Shown here in pieces: positions 40,920 to 53,055 of a stretch of 64,000 nt of DNA; the stretch's first letter is position 1, and each line of letters opens with the position of its first letter. The position numbers and the translations under genes are program-made. Source of the stretch: Sinomonas cyclohexanicum (GTDB lineage: Bacteria > Actinomycetota > Actinomycetes > Actinomycetales > Micrococcaceae). Location: NCBI RefSeq assembly GCF_020886775.1, contig NZ_AP024525.1:3844001-3908000 (forward strand). Reading direction: 5' to 3'. The notes under the pieces were generated by a model. The model was not told where the DNA came from and searched no databases. It was given only the letters and a program-made list of their open reading frames with translations.

Positions 40920-42824
40920 GTGAGAACCCGCCCCTCCTGGCTCCTGACCCTCGTCCTGTCCCTGTCCGGCACACTCGTGGCGCTGCAGCAGACGCTCGTC
41001 GTCCCGCTGCTGCCCGATTTCCCCAAGATCCTGGGCGTCTCCTCCGACGACGCCTCATGGCTCGTGACCGCGACCCTGCTGGTCTCCGCGGTCGCGACGC
41101 CGATCGTGTCCAAGCTCGCAGACATGTTCGGCAAGAAGCTCATGATGCTGGTGTGCCTCGGCGTAATGATCGGCGGGTCCATCGTCGCGGGGATCGGGCT
41201 GGGCTTCGGGTGGGTCGTCGTCGGGCGAGCGCTCCAGGGCTTCTCGACGGCGCTCATCCCCGTGGGCATCAGCATCATGCGGGACGAGCTCCCGCCCAAG
41301 AAGGTGGGCAGCGCCGTCGCCCTCATGAGCGCGACCCTCGGCATCGGCGGCGCTCTTGGGATGCCGCTCGCGGGCGTCATCTTCGACAACCTCGGCTGGC
41401 ACAGCATCTTCTGGATCGCGGCCGCCGCGGGCGCCGCGATGTTCGCCGCGATCGCCGCCTTCATCCCGGAGTCCCGGGTCAAGACGCCCGGACGCTTCGA
41501 CCTGGTCGGCGCTGCGCTCCTCTCCGCGGCACTCACGGCGCTCCTGATCGCCGTGACGAAGGGCGGCTCGTGGGGCTGGGGCAGTCCCGGGGTGTGGGCC
41601 CTGTTCATCGGCGCCGCCGCCCTCCTCGCCGTCTGGTTCCCGTACGAGCTGAGGATCGGCGCCCCCATGGTGGACCTGCGCACGTCCGCCCGCCGCCCGG
41701 TCCTGCTGACCAACCTCGCATCCATCCTCGTGGGGTTCTCCATGTTCGCGAACCTCCTCCTCGCCGCGCAGCAGCTCCAGTTCCCCGCCGCGACCGGCTA
41801 CGGGTTCGGCCTCACGGTCCTCCAAGCCGGCCTCGTCCTGATCCCGTCGGGGCTCGTCATGGCGCTCTTCGCGCCGGTCTCGGGCGTCATGATCAACCGC
41901 CTCGGCGGACGCCTGACCCTGATGATCGGCGCCGCGATCCTCGCCGCGAGCTACGTGGTCCGCGTGTTCTTCTCGAACTCGGTGCTCGAGATCGCGATCG
42001 GAGCGACGATCGTGAGCATCGGCACCGCTATCGCGTACGCGCCCATGCCGACCCTCATCATGGGCTCCGTCCCCGTGACCGAGACCGCGGCGGCCAACGG
42101 ACTCAACACGCTCCTGCGCGCGGTCGGGACCTCCTCCTCGAGCGCGGCGGTGGCCGCGTTCCTCGCCAACGTCACGATGGAGGTCGGCGGGGTCAGACTC
42201 CCCGCGGTCGAGGCGTTCCACGGCGTGTACTGGATGGCCTGCATCGCCGCCCTCGGCTCGATCTGCCTCGTGTGGTTCGTCCCCAAGCCGGCCCCAGCGG
42301 CAACCCACGCCGCCCGCGAAGGAGGGGACGTCGTCGTGCGCGGCATGCTCCGCACCGGCGCGGAGGCCCCCGCGAGCCGCGGCCTCGTCTCCATCCTGAC
42401 CCTCGACGGCGAGCCGATGGACTGGGCGCGCGTCGACACGGACGGGGCGTTCTCGGTCGCGGTGCCCGCCGCGGGCACCTACCTCGCCGTCGCGACGGCG
42501 CCGGGGTGGGCGCCGTCGGCGCAGGTGATCCGGCTGGAGCCTGAGGTCGCGCACGAGCTGTCGCTCGGCGAGGAGCAGGCGCTCCACGGGGTGGTGCACG
42601 ACGCCGGGGGCTCGCCCGTACGCGGCGCCGTCCTGTCCGTGGTGGGCTGGGACGGGGTCTTCGAGGGCACGGCCCACACGGACGACGACGGCGCCTACCG
42701 GCTCAGGCTCCCGCCCGCGGGACGGTACGTCGTGAGCCTCCTCGACCCCACGACAGAGCAGGCCCAGGCCCGCAAGGTCAACGTCGAGACCCGGTCCCAG
42801 CAGCTCGACTGGGTGACGGCGTGA
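40920..42824 (+). CDS. DHA2-type MFS transporter fused to two carboxypeptidase-regulatory-like domains
   Basis: A 634-residue protein. Residues 1-455 are a 14-helix MFS exporter with the DHA2 features (QQTLVVPLLPDFPKILG, KLADMFGKKLMML, GALGMPLAGVIFDNLGW). Residues about 465-634 contain two transthyretin-like beta-sandwich repeats: RGLVSILTLDGEPMDW with DTDGAFSVAVPAAGTY, then GVVHDAGGSPVRGAVLS with DDDGAYRLRLPPAGRY. Such soluble domains on an MFS carrier are unusual and could bind ligand or partner. The GTG start has no ribosome site, fitting a leaderless mRNA. It overlaps the TetR gene by four bases. Confidence 0.87.
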   Translation: MRTRPSWLLTLVLSLSGTLVALQQTLVVPLLPDFPKILGVSSDDASWLVTATLLVSAVATPIVSKLADMFGKKLMMLVCLGVMIGGSIVAGIGLGFGWVVVGRALQGFSTALIPVGISIMRDELPPKKVGSAVALMSATLGIGGALGMPLAGVIFDNLGWHSIFWIAAAAGAAMFAAIAAFIPESRVKTPGRFDLVGAALLSAALTALLIAVTKGGSWGWGSPGVWALFIGAAALLAVWFPYELRIGAPMVDLRTSARRPVLLTNLASILVGFSMFANLLLAAQQLQFPAATGYGFGLTVLQAGLVLIPSGLVMALFAPVSGVMINRLGGRLTLMIGAAILAASYVVRVFFSNSVLEIAIGATIVSIGTAIAYAPMPTLIMGSVPVTETAAANGLNTLLRAVGTSSSSAAVAAFLANVTMEVGGVRLPAVEAFHGVYWMACIAALGSICLVWFVPKPAPAATHAAREGGDVVVRGMLRTGAEAPASRGLVSILTLDGEPMDWARVDTDGAFSVAVPAAGTYLAVATAPGWAPSAQVIRLEPEVAHELSLGEEQALHGVVHDAGGSPVRGAVLSVVGWDGVFEGTAHTDDDGAYRLRLPPAGRYVVSLLDPTTEQAQARKVNVETRSQQLDWVTA

Positions 42825-43414
42825 ACGCGGGCGACCCCGGCCAGCACCGAGAGCCGAGCCAGCACCGGGAGCCCGGCCAACACAGCGCACGCGACGCCAT
42901 CCTGGACGCTGCCCGGACCCTGTTCGCCGAGCGCGGCTACCGCGCCGTGACGGTGCGGGACATTGCCGCGGCGGCGTCGTGCTCGCCGGCCCTGGTCATC
43001 AAGCACTTCGGCTCCAAGGAGGGCCTCTTCGCCCAGACCAAGCCCGAGGATCCGCTCACGCACGAGCTGCGCGTGCCCCGGGCCGAGCTCGGGGAGGCGC
43101 TCGTGTTCCGCGTGCTCATGCGGGGCGAGCGCGGGCTGCCCGAGCCGTGGCTCGCCATCACCCGCAACGTCCGGGAGGCCCCCGACGCCGCCGCCGCGCG
43201 CGAGGAGGCGAGCGCCGACGTGCTCCGGTGGTCCGCCGAGCTCATCGGCGACACGACCCCAGGGAGGCGACACGCCGCCGTCGTGTGCGCGCTCATGTTC
43301 GGGCTCGCGGAGGCGGTCCGGACCATGGACCTCCTCGCACCGCGCTGGGCGTTCGACGACGTCGTGAGGCACTACGGGCGCAAGGTCCAGGAGGAGATCG
43401 ACGCCTGCGGCTAG
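42821..43414 (+). CDS. TetR-family regulator of the MFS operon
   Basis: A 197-residue TetR protein. The N-terminus has short repeats of GQHREP before the helix-turn-helix (DAILDAARTLFAERGYRAVTVRDIA, then CSPALVIKHFGSKEGLFA at about residues 50-70). The C-terminal ligand domain ends in TMDLLAPRWAFDDVVRHYG. The GTG at 42821 overlaps the MFS stop, so pump and repressor are coupled. Tandem operators before the MFS gene are its likely target. Confidence 0.87.
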   Translation: MNAGDPGQHREPSQHREPGQHSARDAILDAARTLFAERGYRAVTVRDIAAAASCSPALVIKHFGSKEGLFAQTKPEDPLTHELRVPRAELGEALVFRVLMRGERGLPEPWLAITRNVREAPDAAAAREEASADVLRWSAELIGDTTPGRRHAAVVCALMFGLAEAVRTMDLLAPRWAFDDVVRHYGRKVQEEIDACG

Positions 43415-47210: not shown

Positions 47211-50200
47211 TCAGCGAAGCACGATGTCCACGGGGTTCGCCTGTGACCGCGGGCCCCCCGGATCGCTGCGTCCATCGTTTCCTGCCGGCGTCTCGATGAG
47301 GCCCGACCGGTTGGTCCGCTTGTCCCGCAGGATCTCCGTCACGGAACCGAGGTAGCGCGAGAGGTCGATGACGTTCTCGGGCGCCGCGAGCAGCAGCTGG
47401 AATCCGAACTCGTGCAGCGCCCCGATGCCCTGGCCGGCGAATTCCTCGGACGCAAGCACGAACGCCTCGTCCATCATCACGGTCCCGTAGCTCGTGAACC
47501 CCTGCTCGGCGATCCCGAGCTGGTAGCTCAGCGCCGCAGCCATGATGAACGCCGTGAAGCGCTGCCGCTCGCCGCCGGACATGCTCCCGGTGTCCGCGTG
47601 CACGAACACCTCGTCCCGCGGGCCGTCCGGCGTGCCGTTCGTGGTGTCTCGCGACACCCGGTGCTCCTTGCACGAGATGAACACGTGCGTGCGCGTGTCC
47701 AAGACCTCGGCCCGCCACCGCCGGTCCTCGGGCGTCTGCGACGCCAGCCGCTTCACGAGCGCCTCGAGGGTCTTGTAGCGGATGGTGAGCTGGTCGTCGT
47801 CGTGCTTCGCCCCGGCAGCGGCGGGTGAGCTGCCCCCGCCGGGCGCCCCCTTCCCCGACGACGGCGCGTGGCGCGCCCTGAGCGCCGAGACGATCGCCTC
47901 CTTGAACTGCTTCGCGGACGCCGGGACGGTTTGCCGGATGTCGAGCTCGAGGTACGAGCCGTCGTGGAAGTCGACGCCGGCGAGGATCGAGTTCAGCGGC
48001 AGGATGCGGGCGGCGATGCCGCGGCGCTCCTCGTCGAGCAGGTGCAGGAGCGTGGAGAACGACTCGTGCGTGCGCTGCGCGAAGAACTCCCGGAACTGCG
48101 CCTCCTGTGCCGGCAGGCCCTCGGAGACGATCTGGTGGTAGCGGGCCTCGAACGCGGCCGCGGCGCCGATCGAGGTGCCGTGGTCGGCCGAGACGACGGA
48201 GCCCCAGTCGCGCTGGAACTGCTCGAAGATGCGGGTCAGCCGCTCGGCGGCGGCCTGCCCGCGGCTCTCCGCAGCGTGGACGCGGGAGGCGAGGCGTGCG
48301 TGGACCTCGGCGGCGATCCGCTCGAGGTCGGACTGGTCCTCGGGCTGGCCGAATTCGGCGAACAGCGGAGCGAGCGTGCCGGTCGCGGCGGCCGACGGCG
48401 GCGCGTCCGCCAGCAGGGTCCGCGCGGCCTCGAGGAGCCGGTCGGCGCTGGCGAGCTGGGAGTCAAGTTGGCGGTACTCGCTCTGCAGCACGGCCGCGGC
48501 CTCGGTGGAGGCCTGGTGGTCCGCGCGGACGGCCTCGACCTTCGCGCGCAGCGGCTCGAGGTCGGTCTGCGCGGCGAGGGCGTCCTCGAGTCGCTTCTCG
48601 ATGCGGGCGAGCTCCTGGGCGGCGGCCTCGGTGGAGACGTCCTCCCAGGCCCGCTCGTCGCCGGCAACCCGGCGCAGCGCCTCGACCCGGCGGCCGTGGT
48701 CCTGGTGCGAGTCCTCACTCGCCTGGGCGGCCTCGGCGGCGCGTGCCAGAGCGGCCTCGAGCTCGAGCACCCGGGCGGCGACGAGCTCGACCTTGGAGGC
48801 GTTGTCGAAGCCGAGGACGAAGTCGGCGCGGGCCGCGAAGCGGTCGTCCTTCTCGACCGTACCTCGGCCGCGCTTCACCACGCCGCCGAGGCTCAGGCCT
48901 CGCTCGAGCCCGGCGAGCTCGTCAGGGTCCTCGACGCACCTGTACGCGAAGTCGACGGCGATCCGCTCCCGCACGTACGCACCCGCCTCGGCGTGCTCGC
49001 CGGAGTCGAGGATGTCCAGCTTGGTCAGGAGGTCCCGCCCACCCACCGATTCGAGGGCGAGCTCCGCGCCGGGGACGCGGGAGGAGAGGTCGACGGCGCG
49101 CAGTGCCCCCCGCACGGGATTCGCATCGAGCCAGCGGGTCACCGCCGCGAAATGCCGTCCGGGGACGAGGAGCGTCGTGGCGAGCGGGCGCAGGGCCCGC
49201 TCCGCCGCGGCACGCCAGGCCTCGTGGCCCTCCGCGAGGTCGATCAGCTCGCCGGCGTAGGGCAGCTCATCCTCCCCCACACCCAGCGCCCCGGCGATGG
49301 CAGCGCGGTTGGACAGGGCATGCTGGGGCAGGAGGCTCTTGCTGGCCGACATGGCCGCGAGCTCCGTGCGGGCCTCGGCGAGCTCGCGCTTCGCGGTCGC
49401 CTGGGCCTCGAACGCACCGAAGCGCGCCTCCCTGAGGGCCTCCGCGCCGCCCTCGAGCCGCGCGAGAGCCTCGACGGCCTGCCGGCGAGCGGCCGCCCAG
49501 CCCTCGGCCGAGAGCGGGAGGTCAAGGCCGGCGTCGTGCATCCCCGCCTTCGCGGCGGCCTCCACCTCGCGGCGCAGTCGCAGGCCAACGGCCGCGTTGT
49601 CGCGGGCCTGCTCGAGCGTGGAGATCTGGTTTCCGCCGGCGTTGTTGTACTCGGCCTCGAGGGAGCGCAGCTCGGCGGCGAGGGCCTCGCGGCGGTGGCG
49701 CTCGGCGGAGAGTTCCTTGGCCTTGGCCTGCGCCCGCGTCCGGATCCCGGTGATGAGCCGCTCCTGGACGGCCACGCTGTGGGCCTGGCGCACGGCGTCG
49801 AACGGCTCGTCGGCGAGGTCCCGCAGGCGCGCGGCCTCGGCCTGGGCGGCCTCGTACTCCTGGTTGAGGGCGGGGACGGGGGCCAGCTGGTCGCGCTGGA
49901 GGCGCACGTCCTCGAGCCGGCCGCGGATGGACATGAGGTTGGAGAACTCCTCGACCACCTCGTCCGCGGCGGCGAGCGTGGCGGGCGCGTCGAGGACCTG
50001 GTCGCGGAAGAAGCTGTTGACGCTCCCGCCGAGGCCCTTGCCCGACTGGATGACGCGCAGGAGCGGGAGGGCCTGGTCGCTCGAGATGCCCAGGAGACGG
50101 CGGAACCGCTCGGCGAACGTCTTGTGGACGTCGAACACCTGGGCGTCCGGGAAGAGCACCTCGAGGGCCGACTTCGTGAAGCGTCGGCTCTCTCCCTGGC

Positions 50201-50705
50201 CGGTGAGGCCCTCGACCGCCTGCACGTCCAGCGGGACGGAGTCGATGAGGTAGAACCGGCCCAGGCTCGACTCGGTGCCGTTCTTGGGCAGGTCGAACAG
50301 TGCCGAGAGGGTGTACGCGGCGCCGGCGGCGTTGCTGAACGTGAGCGCGACGGCGCTCCAGGTGGCCCCCGGGCGCTGGAACGCGCTCGCCCGTCCTTCA
50401 CCCACCGCGACGTCGCCGACCTTGCCGCGCATGTACGTGTACGTGGTGCGGCGGTCCTCGGAGGTGCCCGTGCGGGCCGCGGCCGCCTCGTTGGAGCGCG
50501 GGCGGGCGTCGAACACGCGGGCGATCGCGTCGAACAGCGTGGACTTCCCCACGCCGGAGTTGCCCGTGAGCATGGTGCCCGCCCGGTCCACGTGCATCGT
50601 GTGGGATCCGTGGAACGTTCCCCAGTTGACCACCTGGACGAGGCTCAGGCGGTACTGGCCGGGGTTGATGTCCGTGCCCAGCGGGAGCATGGCCGCGACG
50701 CTCAC
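47211..50705 (-). CDS. jetC: JetC/MukB-like SMC-family ATPase
   Basis: A 1164-residue SMC-like protein. The head is split across both ends: Walker [19 protein letters not shown] at residues about 48-65, the signature [11 protein letters not shown] and Walker [15 protein letters not shown] near residues 1040-1085. The middle is long coiled coil rich in Glu, Arg and Ala, with a hinge-like part near 480-600. All ATPase residues are intact. The GTG at 50705 overlaps the jetB stop (GTGA). In Wadjet it is the motor that extrudes DNA loops and recognises small circular DNA. No JetD nuclease gene follows; the next gene is an LCP protein. Confidence 0.9.
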
Positions 50706-51514
50706 GGGTTGACCTCCTCCTCGGTCTGTTCTTCTGGTCCTTCCCCGCCGAGGTCGGGGGATCTGTCCTCCTCGACGCCCGAGGCGAGCTGACCGCCGTC
50801 GTCGGGCAGGGCGCCGTCGTGCGCGCCTCCGGTCCGCTCCGGGCCCGCAGCGACGACGGCTTCGAGGTGTCGGGTCACGTCGCCGATGTTCTCGAAGGGG
50901 AGCGCAAGCGGGAGGGCGTTGGAGATGAGGTAGACGTCGTCGAGGGCGGTCGGGATGAGGAGGCGACGGGCCTGGAGCTTCGCGACGGCGCGGTTCACCG
51001 TGTCCGTGTCGCGGAGGGCGTCCTGCTCTTCGGCTGGCTGGTAATGGGCCACGACGTCGGCGAGCTCCTCGAGCGTGACCGTCGGCTCGGTCTGGGCGGT
51101 GACGTGCCGGTCAAGCAGGAGGCGAAGCCGCAGAAGGAGGATCGTCTCGACGCGGCTGAGGGTGCGCTGCTGCCGCAGGACCGTGGCGCGCGACGCCGTG
51201 CCCAGCAGCTCCGGATCCACCGGGCGCAGGACGGCGATCTTGCGCCCATGGTCGATCTGGAGGCGAAGGAAGAGCTCGGAGAGCCGCGAGCGAAGCACGT
51301 CCTGATGGTCAAGGAGTGTGGTCCAGGCCTTCTCGTCGCGGATGCCGTCGAGATACGGGCCCTTGAGGAGGCGGACCAGGACGTGCCGGACCTTGAGGGG
51401 AAGCACGCCCGTGTCGCCGTCGTAGAGGGCGGCGCTGGGGGCGAAGGCCCCGATCTCGGCGTCAGGGGCCCCGATCTCGGCGTCAGGGGACCCGATCTCG
51501 GCGGTGGTGTCCAC
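50702..51514 (-). CDS. jetB: JetB/MukE-like DUF4194 protein
   Basis: A 270-residue DUF4194 protein, the kite-type partner of JetC. The domain runs from about residue 30 ([40 protein letters not shown]) to 215 ([16 protein letters not shown]). The N-terminus holds three AEIG(A/S)PD repeats from a 21-bp DNA repeat, and the C-terminus is acidic. The GTG at 51514 shares its first base with the jetA stop (TAGTG), and the gene overlaps jetC by four bases, so all three are translationally linked. Confidence 0.88.
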
Positions 51515-53055
51515 TAGTTCTCCTCCTCGCGGGTCGGGATTTCCGGTTGCTCGCGGACGACGGTCGCGTGGGGGACATAGGCGGTGCGGCGCGTGCCGTC
51601 GACCTGTCCGAACTCGAGCGGTGCCCAGACACCCCGGTCAAGGCGCACGCCCTCCTGCAGCAGGTGGCCGAGAAGCGCGCGGATCGAGTTAATGTGCTGC
51701 TCCTCGGCGGGCAGCTGGGACCAGATCCCGCTGATCTCGGCGCGGCCGCGCCCTGCCTCGAGTGCCACCGCCACGGCCTCCCGAAGCGTACCGGCCCGAG
51801 CCTTCGCGGTCCGGGCGGACCGTGCGCGGTCATCGCTCCCGAAGCTGATCGGGTCCGCGAGGCGCGGCGGCGGCGCGAGCTCGTCAGGGTCGAAGAGCTT
51901 CACCATGGACAGCGATTCGAACTCGGCACCGAACAGCTCAGGAGCGGGCGCGAAACCCGACTCCTCGCGCACGTACGTCAGACGGCGCACGGCCTGCTCC
52001 GCCCGGCGGATCGCCTCGCGCAGACGGACGGACTGGCGGTAGTCGTCGCTCTGGACGTAGGTATTGAGGCTCTCGGAGAGCTTGCCGTAGATGCGCTGGA
52101 TCTGGGCGTTCGCCTCGCGCAGCTCCGCGACCAGGTTGCGGAGGGTCTCGCGCTCCTCATGGTCGAGGCCATCCGCGAAGTCCCGAGAGAGCACCTCTCC
52201 GATCGCGGCACGGAAGCGCAGCTGCTGCTCGGGGTCGTCGAGGAACGCCGTGAACGAGCGGAACGTGCGGCCCTCGCTCGAGGCCCGCAGCCGCCGGTCC
52301 GCCTCAAGGACCTGGGCCATCGTGGCGCCCTTGGTCAGCGACTCCTCGATGATCTGATTGCGCAGCTCGCCCACGGAGTCCTCGATCGCGGCGCGCATGC
52401 GCTTGAAGTCGGCGGGCACGCCGGCTGCGAGGTCCAGGATGTTCCCTGCCGCCTCGAGCGCGGTCTCATCGTCGAGGCTCCCGGACTGCTCCCCCGCCCT
52501 CAGCGCGCGCACGAGCTCGAGCCGCTCCTCGATCTCCGCCTCGAGGGCCTCGATCCGCGCGCTCGTGTCCGGGTTCGTCTCTCGGGCGAGCCGCTCGACG
52601 TCCCCGAGGAGCGTGCCGAGCCGCGAGCCGGTGAGGGTGGAGCGGTCGGAAGAGAGGGACTCGAGGAAGACGAGCACGCGGGCGCTGGCCTCGGTGAGCT
52701 CGTACACGATGCGGCCGCCCTGCGCCCGTCGGGTGAGGAACCTGCGCCGGGTCCAGTCGTCCGCAATGGCCCTCCCCCCCGCGGTTCCGGCCGTCGCGGG
52801 GGCGCCCAGCGCGGCGTCGTGCGCTCGGAGATCTGCGAGGAACCCGTCCAGTTCCTCGTGGAACTGCTCGAGCTCCACGTGGGGCCGGTTGCGGGTGAAT
52901 GCGGTCTGGAGTGCGGCGATCGTCCACGGGGCAGATCGGGTCAGGGCCCACGCCGGACCTCGATGGAGGGACTCGAGCTCTGCGAGCCTCGCGAGCGCGG
53001 CCGAGGATGGCACACCCGTTGCCGGCTGACGGGGCACGGGCTGCGGTTCTGGCAC
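51514..53055 (-). CDS. jetA: JetA/MukF-like DUF3375 protein
   Basis: A 513-residue DUF3375 protein, the kleisin-type subunit. The winged-helix N-terminus is in [22 protein letters not shown], then [14 protein letters not shown], and a helical middle ([34 protein letters not shown]) that would contact JetB and JetC. The GTG at 53055 is the start, with a possible -10 (TAGACT on the minus strand, 53064-53069) giving a leaderless mRNA. It heads the jetABC operon. Confidence 0.88.

Follow-up and report, generated by a model that had tools for sequence, protein, structure and literature searches.

A JetABC operon without the JetD nuclease in Sinomonas cyclohexanicum, a possible second condensin of Wadjet type I descent

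The jetABC operon and the missing nuclease

The window is a stretch of 64,000 nucleotides of Sinomonas cyclohexanicum (positions 3,844,001 to 3,908,000 of contig NZ_AP024525.1) and contains a three-gene operon, jetABC, which encodes the subunits of a Wadjet-type structural maintenance of chromosomes (SMC) complex. Wadjet type I consists of JetA, JetB, JetC and the nuclease JetD, and includes MksBEFG of Corynebacterium glutamicum and EptABCD of Mycobacterium smegmatis. The operon lies on the minus strand between positions 47211 and 53055, where the genes follow each other head-to-tail in the order jetA, jetB, jetC with overlaps of 1 and 4 bases. JetA (51514..53055) is a MukF-like kleisin subunit of 513 amino acids, JetB (50702..51514) is a MukE-like KITE subunit of 270 amino acids and JetC (47211..50705) is a MukB-like, SMC-like ATPase of 1164 amino acids. 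Each assignment combines an open reading frame with Pfam families, which are DUF3375 for JetA (297 bits, E 2.7e-88), DUF4194 for JetB (99 bits) and the two SMC-like ATPase halves AAA_29 and SbcC_Walker_B for JetC, and with the PADLOC models JetA1 (735 bits), JetB1 (404 bits) and JetC1 (1096 bits). JetA resembles the solved JetA chains 9qxt_E, 8q72_E and 8dk1_A and JetC the solved chains 8as8_A and 8dk2_C, while solved JetB chains are matched by a profile of 11 JetB proteins and not by the lone JetB sequence; all solved relatives found for the three proteins are Wadjet chains. JetB also matches the MksE family PF21980 at 20.8 bits, which is under the cut-off of 27 and does not make it a member. 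JetC has intact Walker A, signature and Walker B motifs, one of which reads VMMDEAF, and all three motifs recur throughout the 100 JetC compared (duplicates counted). An N-terminal motif L[FYW]xGDxG or a close variant of it occurs in 100 of 100 JetB frames, at least six of which are duplicates. The three proteins belong to the type I families and their genes stand in type I order, which confirms the preliminary description of tightly overlapping DUF3375, DUF4194 and SMC-like ATPase genes with an intact ATPase.

In JetABCD systems JetD is proposed to cleave a DNA circle once it has been fully extruded (PMC10586767, PMC12287153). The operon of the window has no JetD. The gene next to jetC encodes a LytR-CpsA-Psr (LCP) protein (Pfam LytR_cpsA_psr), and the intervening gap is too small for a jetD gene of about 400 codons; when the window was searched without filters with a hidden Markov model (HMM) of eight local JetD proteins, the best E-value was 4.3. 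The preliminary description, which saw an LCP gene and no jetD remnant at this position, was right in both respects. It also proposed a search of the whole genome, which is 99.93% complete and of which the window is part as a section of one 4,413,566-base contig. The JetD_C family PF09983 has no match across the complete 4.41-Mb genome (the C. glutamicum control gives one), and DUF3322 (PF11795), which rises above its cut-off in one of 14 control genomes, gives nothing above it, with a best E-value of 0.84. It is therefore very improbable, within the reach of PF09983, that the operon is a standard Wadjet with its JetD encoded elsewhere in the genome, an arrangement for which an orphan JetD_C protein far from the jetABC of another Sinomonas genome (G009) might be taken as a precedent. 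The loss of jetD by an assembly error, which the preliminary description had also considered and which belongs to the same very improbable explanation, is ruled out because close relatives in independent assemblies are likewise without JetD at the same place. Assembly gap, decay and a JetD elsewhere in the genome were rejected as causes of the missing gene, given the single complete contig, the intact genes, the purifying selection on them and the state of the relatives, all described below, together with the results for the two families above.

Conservation and inheritance of the JetD-less operon

DUF3375 is found in 14 of 15 Sinomonas genomes, and the window-type JetD-less operon recurs in 13 Sinomonas other than that of the window at 72-86% protein identity. 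Its flanks, TelA or Ter genes at one end and GDSL lipase and major facilitator superfamily (MFS) genes at the other, are both kept in 11 of these 13; of the remaining two, L045 keeps only the GDSL lipase/MFS side and L054 only the TelA/Ter side. JetD_C is present in four of the 15 genomes (G002, G004, G009 and G011), and ten of the 14 that carry JetA have no JetD match anywhere. JetD of G002, G004 and G011 sits in separate JetABCD loci with a distant JetC, which these genomes have in addition to the window-type operon, so that JetABCD is patchy in the genus (3/15 genomes). The JetD_C protein of G009 (L075) has no jetABC nearby. The single Sinomonas without the operon, G012, has its LCP gene and terC approximately 0.9 kb apart and keeps ScpA; tblastn finds no match to jetABC between these two genes, which is most simply explained if the unit was lost cleanly and in full.

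Beyond the genus, a scan with a JetC alignment was made with one genome per species, and the best 80 of 393 relatives were kept, which comprise five Sinomonas, with Arthrobacter, Pseudarthrobacter, Paenarthrobacter and one Micrococcaceae metagenome-assembled genome making up the others; six or more of these genomes had already supplied fetched loci. Matches to jetA, jetB and jetC lie on one strand in all 80. The local HMM finds JetD in none of them, 75 having 7 kb of downstream sequence and five only about 0.6 to 2.3 kb; as a control it recovered 12 of 12 JetD loci, eight of which are in its seed. A JetC tree was built from 34 rows, of which 11 have JetD in the locus itself and 23 do not. Its 14 Sinomonas rows group with six other Micrococcaceae in a single JetD-less clade of 20 rows with a support of 100/100, and L057, L062 and L064 form a second JetD-less group; according to the warning of the tool, long branches meet where the Micrococcaceae clade joins the rest. 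The JetC of the window shares only 24-31% identity with the JetC of the 11 JetD-bearing loci fetched from the order. Among 396 genomes sampled from the order, counted with one profile per protein, DUF3375 occurs in 171 and JetD_C in 89; 85 of the 171 JetA-bearing genomes have a JetD match and 86 have none, and JetD occurs without JetA in four genomes. The well-supported branches of a JetA tree of 51 rows require the JetD label to change four times or more; this tree, made by a quick method and containing long branches, describes relationships and not frequencies, since 18 of its JetD-less rows were picked deliberately.

A missing JetD could also mark a decaying Wadjet remnant. The jetABC genes are under purifying selection, with a median ratio of non-synonymous to synonymous substitution rates (dN/dS) among the 14 Sinomonas of 0.22 for jetA, 0.27 for jetB and 0.24 for jetC, all well below 1 (pairs with dS under 2: 91/91, 85/91 and 91/91, respectively), and of 0.05 to 0.25 in the five lowest-dS pairs of each gene. 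None of the 35 DUF3375 matches listed contains an internal stop. Together with the ATPase motifs kept throughout the JetC compared, the same three genes in every one of the best 80 relatives and an only Sinomonas absence that leaves no trace of jetA, jetB or jetC, these values make decay scarcely credible.

The divergence of jetABC follows that of a core gene. Distances of JetC and of ScpA, the product of an unlinked core gene, are correlated with a Spearman coefficient of 0.85 in the 14 Sinomonas and of 0.93 when four genera are added, and none of 2000 permutations is as high in either set. The mean distances within Sinomonas are similar (0.184 for JetC and 0.181 for ScpA), the rate for ScpA, whose matches were obtained by tblastn, being approximate because its query was a stop-to-stop frame. 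As it holds the same place across the genus and diverges congruently with a core gene, jetABC is a vertically inherited, core-like gene set, and its vertical descent extends to the Arthrobacter lineage. Among 72,556 plasmid records JetA has four matches, of which only two exceed 40% identity, both on Arthrobacter megaplasmids (1.35 and 0.75 Mb); the stretch fetched around jetABC on the 0.75-Mb megaplasmid contains no JetD. Extra contigs were seen in just two Sinomonas genomes, three in all (60, 82 and 203 kb), too few to judge the exclusion of small plasmids.

These observations bear on the idea that JetABC restricts plasmids without a nuclease, by extruding incoming circles to completion and then compacting, silencing or sequestering them uncut. 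Smc5/6, which restricts extrachromosomal DNA, would offer a parallel for restriction free of cutting. The intact ATPase motifs of JetC agree with it, as does the N-terminal motif kept in the JetD-less JetB compared, which resembles that of two JetD-bearing systems. The sensing of plasmid shape and size by Wadjet has moreover been attributed to JetABC and not to JetD (PMC10586767). Such a role is nevertheless considered unlikely, as the operon is inherited vertically in 14 of 15 Sinomonas with a divergence that tracks ScpA, unlike the patchy JetABCD of the genus, as it is nearly absent from plasmids and as the neighbours scanned in Arthrobacter are metabolic and not defence genes.

Neighbouring genes and candidate nucleases

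The neighbours just mentioned were scanned in the loci of Arthrobacter and its kin. Upstream, 70 of 80 loci have an acyl-CoA dehydrogenase cluster, while clusters of substrate-binding and FecCD transport proteins lie downstream (57 and 55 of 80 loci); they are metabolic genes, with no defence genes among them. In the window itself the operon adjoins Ter genes, whose presence is confirmed as DUF475/TerC, two TerD and TelA. The preliminary description found this placement notable, and the neighbours are real; they hold no clue to function, being the neighbourhood of the operon in Sinomonas. Like the window, 12 of the 13 other Sinomonas have TelA/Ter genes next to jetABC, but only one of 75 non-Sinomonas loci does (L157), and because of this rarity outside the genus the association looks positional. 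A functional link between jetABC and the Ter island was rejected on the same count.

A different nuclease, encoded nearby or elsewhere, might have replaced JetD as the partner of JetABC. Directly upstream of jetA and on the same strand, eight of 14 Sinomonas loci (for example L047:5280-6203) contain a gene for a protein of 304-307 amino acids; the N-terminus of the protein is AbiEi-like, and its match to the MTES_1575 endonuclease domain is weak and stays under the cut-off. This gene is parted from jetA by a gap, whereas the jetABC genes overlap. It is not found beside jetA in the window, which is one of six such Sinomonas loci out of 14, nor in any of the 75 non-Sinomonas loci, and the genome of the window has only paralogues of it with 42% identity or less. 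A second candidate stands on a megaplasmid of Arthrobacter sp. ERGS1:01 (L191:5172-8792), where the gene immediately upstream of a jetABC without JetD, and on its strand, is annotated as a RecB-family nuclease/helicase; the domains that Pfam assigns to it are of helicase and RNase_H_2 type. L060, the only one of 134 loci with a tblastn match, has a 59% identical relative (L060:16264-19722) approximately 3 kb upstream of its jetABC; the window gives no match. The remaining neighbours scanned, a subset of all neighbours, include no nucleases. The upstream genes are weak candidates as replacements of JetD, and it is rather improbable that JetABC acts with a different nuclease. The JetD-docking motif described for the N-terminus of JetB, IFDR (PMC10586767), does not discriminate here, because inspection of the alignments by eye did not reveal it in the JetD-bearing JetB of the order either.

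An MFS protein with carboxypeptidase-regulatory-like repeats is encoded near jetC both in the window (40920-43414) and in L115 (11473-14021). In L115 it adjoins a TetR regulator recognised by Pfam, of which the window has a clustered homologue, and the MFS/TetR pair is a remnant of an ancestral neighbourhood common to both.

JetABC as a proposed second condensin beside Smc-ScpAB

Since the motor is passed on without JetD in the relatives too, JetABC without JetD probably does a job other than cutting plasmids, and since its inheritance is core-like this job is most likely the organisation of the chromosome. The complex has the kleisin, KITE and SMC composition of MksBEF and MukBEF condensins, with no nuclease insofar as JetD is concerned. 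The genome of the window carries Smc, ScpA and ScpB, and JetABC would consequently be a second condensin; ScpA is present in 15 of 15 Sinomonas and in 56 of 58 relatives (the 15 Sinomonas included). It appears moderately likely that JetABC of Sinomonas is a nuclease-free condensin, derived from Wadjet type I, that works on chromosomal DNA beside Smc-ScpAB in the manner of MksBEF. By homology to the solved JetABC complexes, it would load on DNA and extrude loops with ATP; lacking JetD, extrusion would proceed without the cleavage of plasmids, and the complex could then act on the chromosome. Of the two roles that the preliminary description had offered, a nuclease encoded elsewhere, as far as JetD is meant, has no support in the complete genome or in ten of the 14 JetA-bearing Sinomonas, and an MksBEF-like condensin fits the findings.

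Among known systems, the operon shares its protein families and gene order with Wadjet type I and differs in the missing JetD, in its core-like chromosomal inheritance and in the low identity of its JetC to those of the JetD-bearing loci. MksBEF of Pseudomonas aeruginosa is a precedent for a nuclease-free chromosomal condensin, and its origin by loss of JetD has been proposed (PMC10586767). Like the Sinomonas complex it joins a kleisin, a KITE and an SMC protein without a nuclease and exists beside Smc-ScpAB, but the Sinomonas proteins match DUF3375 and DUF4194, fall below the MksE cut-off and come from a host of the Actinomycetota. The related MukBEF has apparently replaced Smc-ScpAB in enterobacteria (PMC10586767), whereas Sinomonas keeps Smc-ScpAB and its sequences are those of JetABC and not of MukBEF.

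A replacement like that by MukBEF may be seen in another family of the order, f11. ScpA occurs in 338 of the 396 genomes of the order sample. In f11, JetA is present in all 33 genomes seen and ScpA has a match in one (G343, which also has JetD); the other 32 show no match, 11 of them being reported as such and 21 deduced from their absence among the matches, and the number of 33 may fall short of the full family as genomes without both JetA and ScpA escape the count. This pattern is as expected if JetABC can do the work of a condensin. The G411 genome of this family (2.39 Mb) retains the order xerD, parA, rluB, tyrA and cmk/der (L268:7656-13850), with parA overlapping rluB by 4 bases and with scpA and scpB, which come after parA in Sinomonas, missing from between them; a response regulator gene, rather than smc, comes after rnc and mutM. 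In the 1.6 Mb of G411 covered, no ScpA or ScpB match is found and the Smc matches are short (45 to 99 residues); ftsY, the neighbour of smc in Sinomonas, is not found in the same 1.6 Mb, and smc could lie in the remaining third. ScpA also has no match in other genomes, some of them from family f4, in which matches are generally weaker and the absence may be a matter of detection. As a tentative proposal, held with less than even confidence, Wadjet may have become a nuclease-free condensin more than once in the order, and the JetABC of f11 with its scattered genes may have replaced Smc-ScpAB, independently repeating the step proposed for MukBEF, while JetABC of Sinomonas and Arthrobacter would represent an intermediate stage with both complexes. 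The f11 loci (L063, L165-L169) have jetA, jetB and jetC up to several kb apart and no JetD, and the fetched stretches of L165, L167 and L063 gave no jetC.

Several points weigh against a condensin function and its extension to f11. The JetA of f11 belongs to a different clade from JetA of the window type, and the SMC search covered 67% of G411. JetABC is dispensable, as G012 is without it and keeps ScpA. MksBEFG of C. glutamicum, the actinobacterial relative that has been studied and one with a nuclease, is described as making no contribution to chromosome folding (PMC7083940).

A lineage with the motor but no nuclease, in which some cells have both versions, provides a natural comparison for the motor acting alone. 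It also carries a practical warning, as JetABC should be counted as plasmid defence only after a check for JetD, which about half of the JetA-bearing genomes of the order sample fail at the level of profile matches. Wadjet is reported in 42% of Actinobacteria in a study whose main text does not contain the word JetD (PMC10482375). For Paenarthrobacter lasiusi S21, Table 6 of PMC11719660 gives a Wadjet with JetA, JetB and JetC beside a separate type I system with JetD1, and the parts of that paper concerned with it count the three-gene set as a defence system without discussing the missing nuclease. Among the matches listed from titles and abstract openings of the open-licence literature, no report of a conserved JetD-less type I JetABC was found.

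A difference was observed in the ATP-binding cassette (ABC) signature of JetC, which was compared in the window protein (47211-50705) and in loci L042-L076 and L166-L184. The signature reads SGGE in the JetD-less Micrococcaceae clade and in the second JetD-less group, and SGGQ in the JetD-bearing JetC with the motif in view (L065 has SGGA, and the motif of L076 is outside the view). SGGQ is also found in the JetC of f11 and in the JetD-less L180, L183 and L184.

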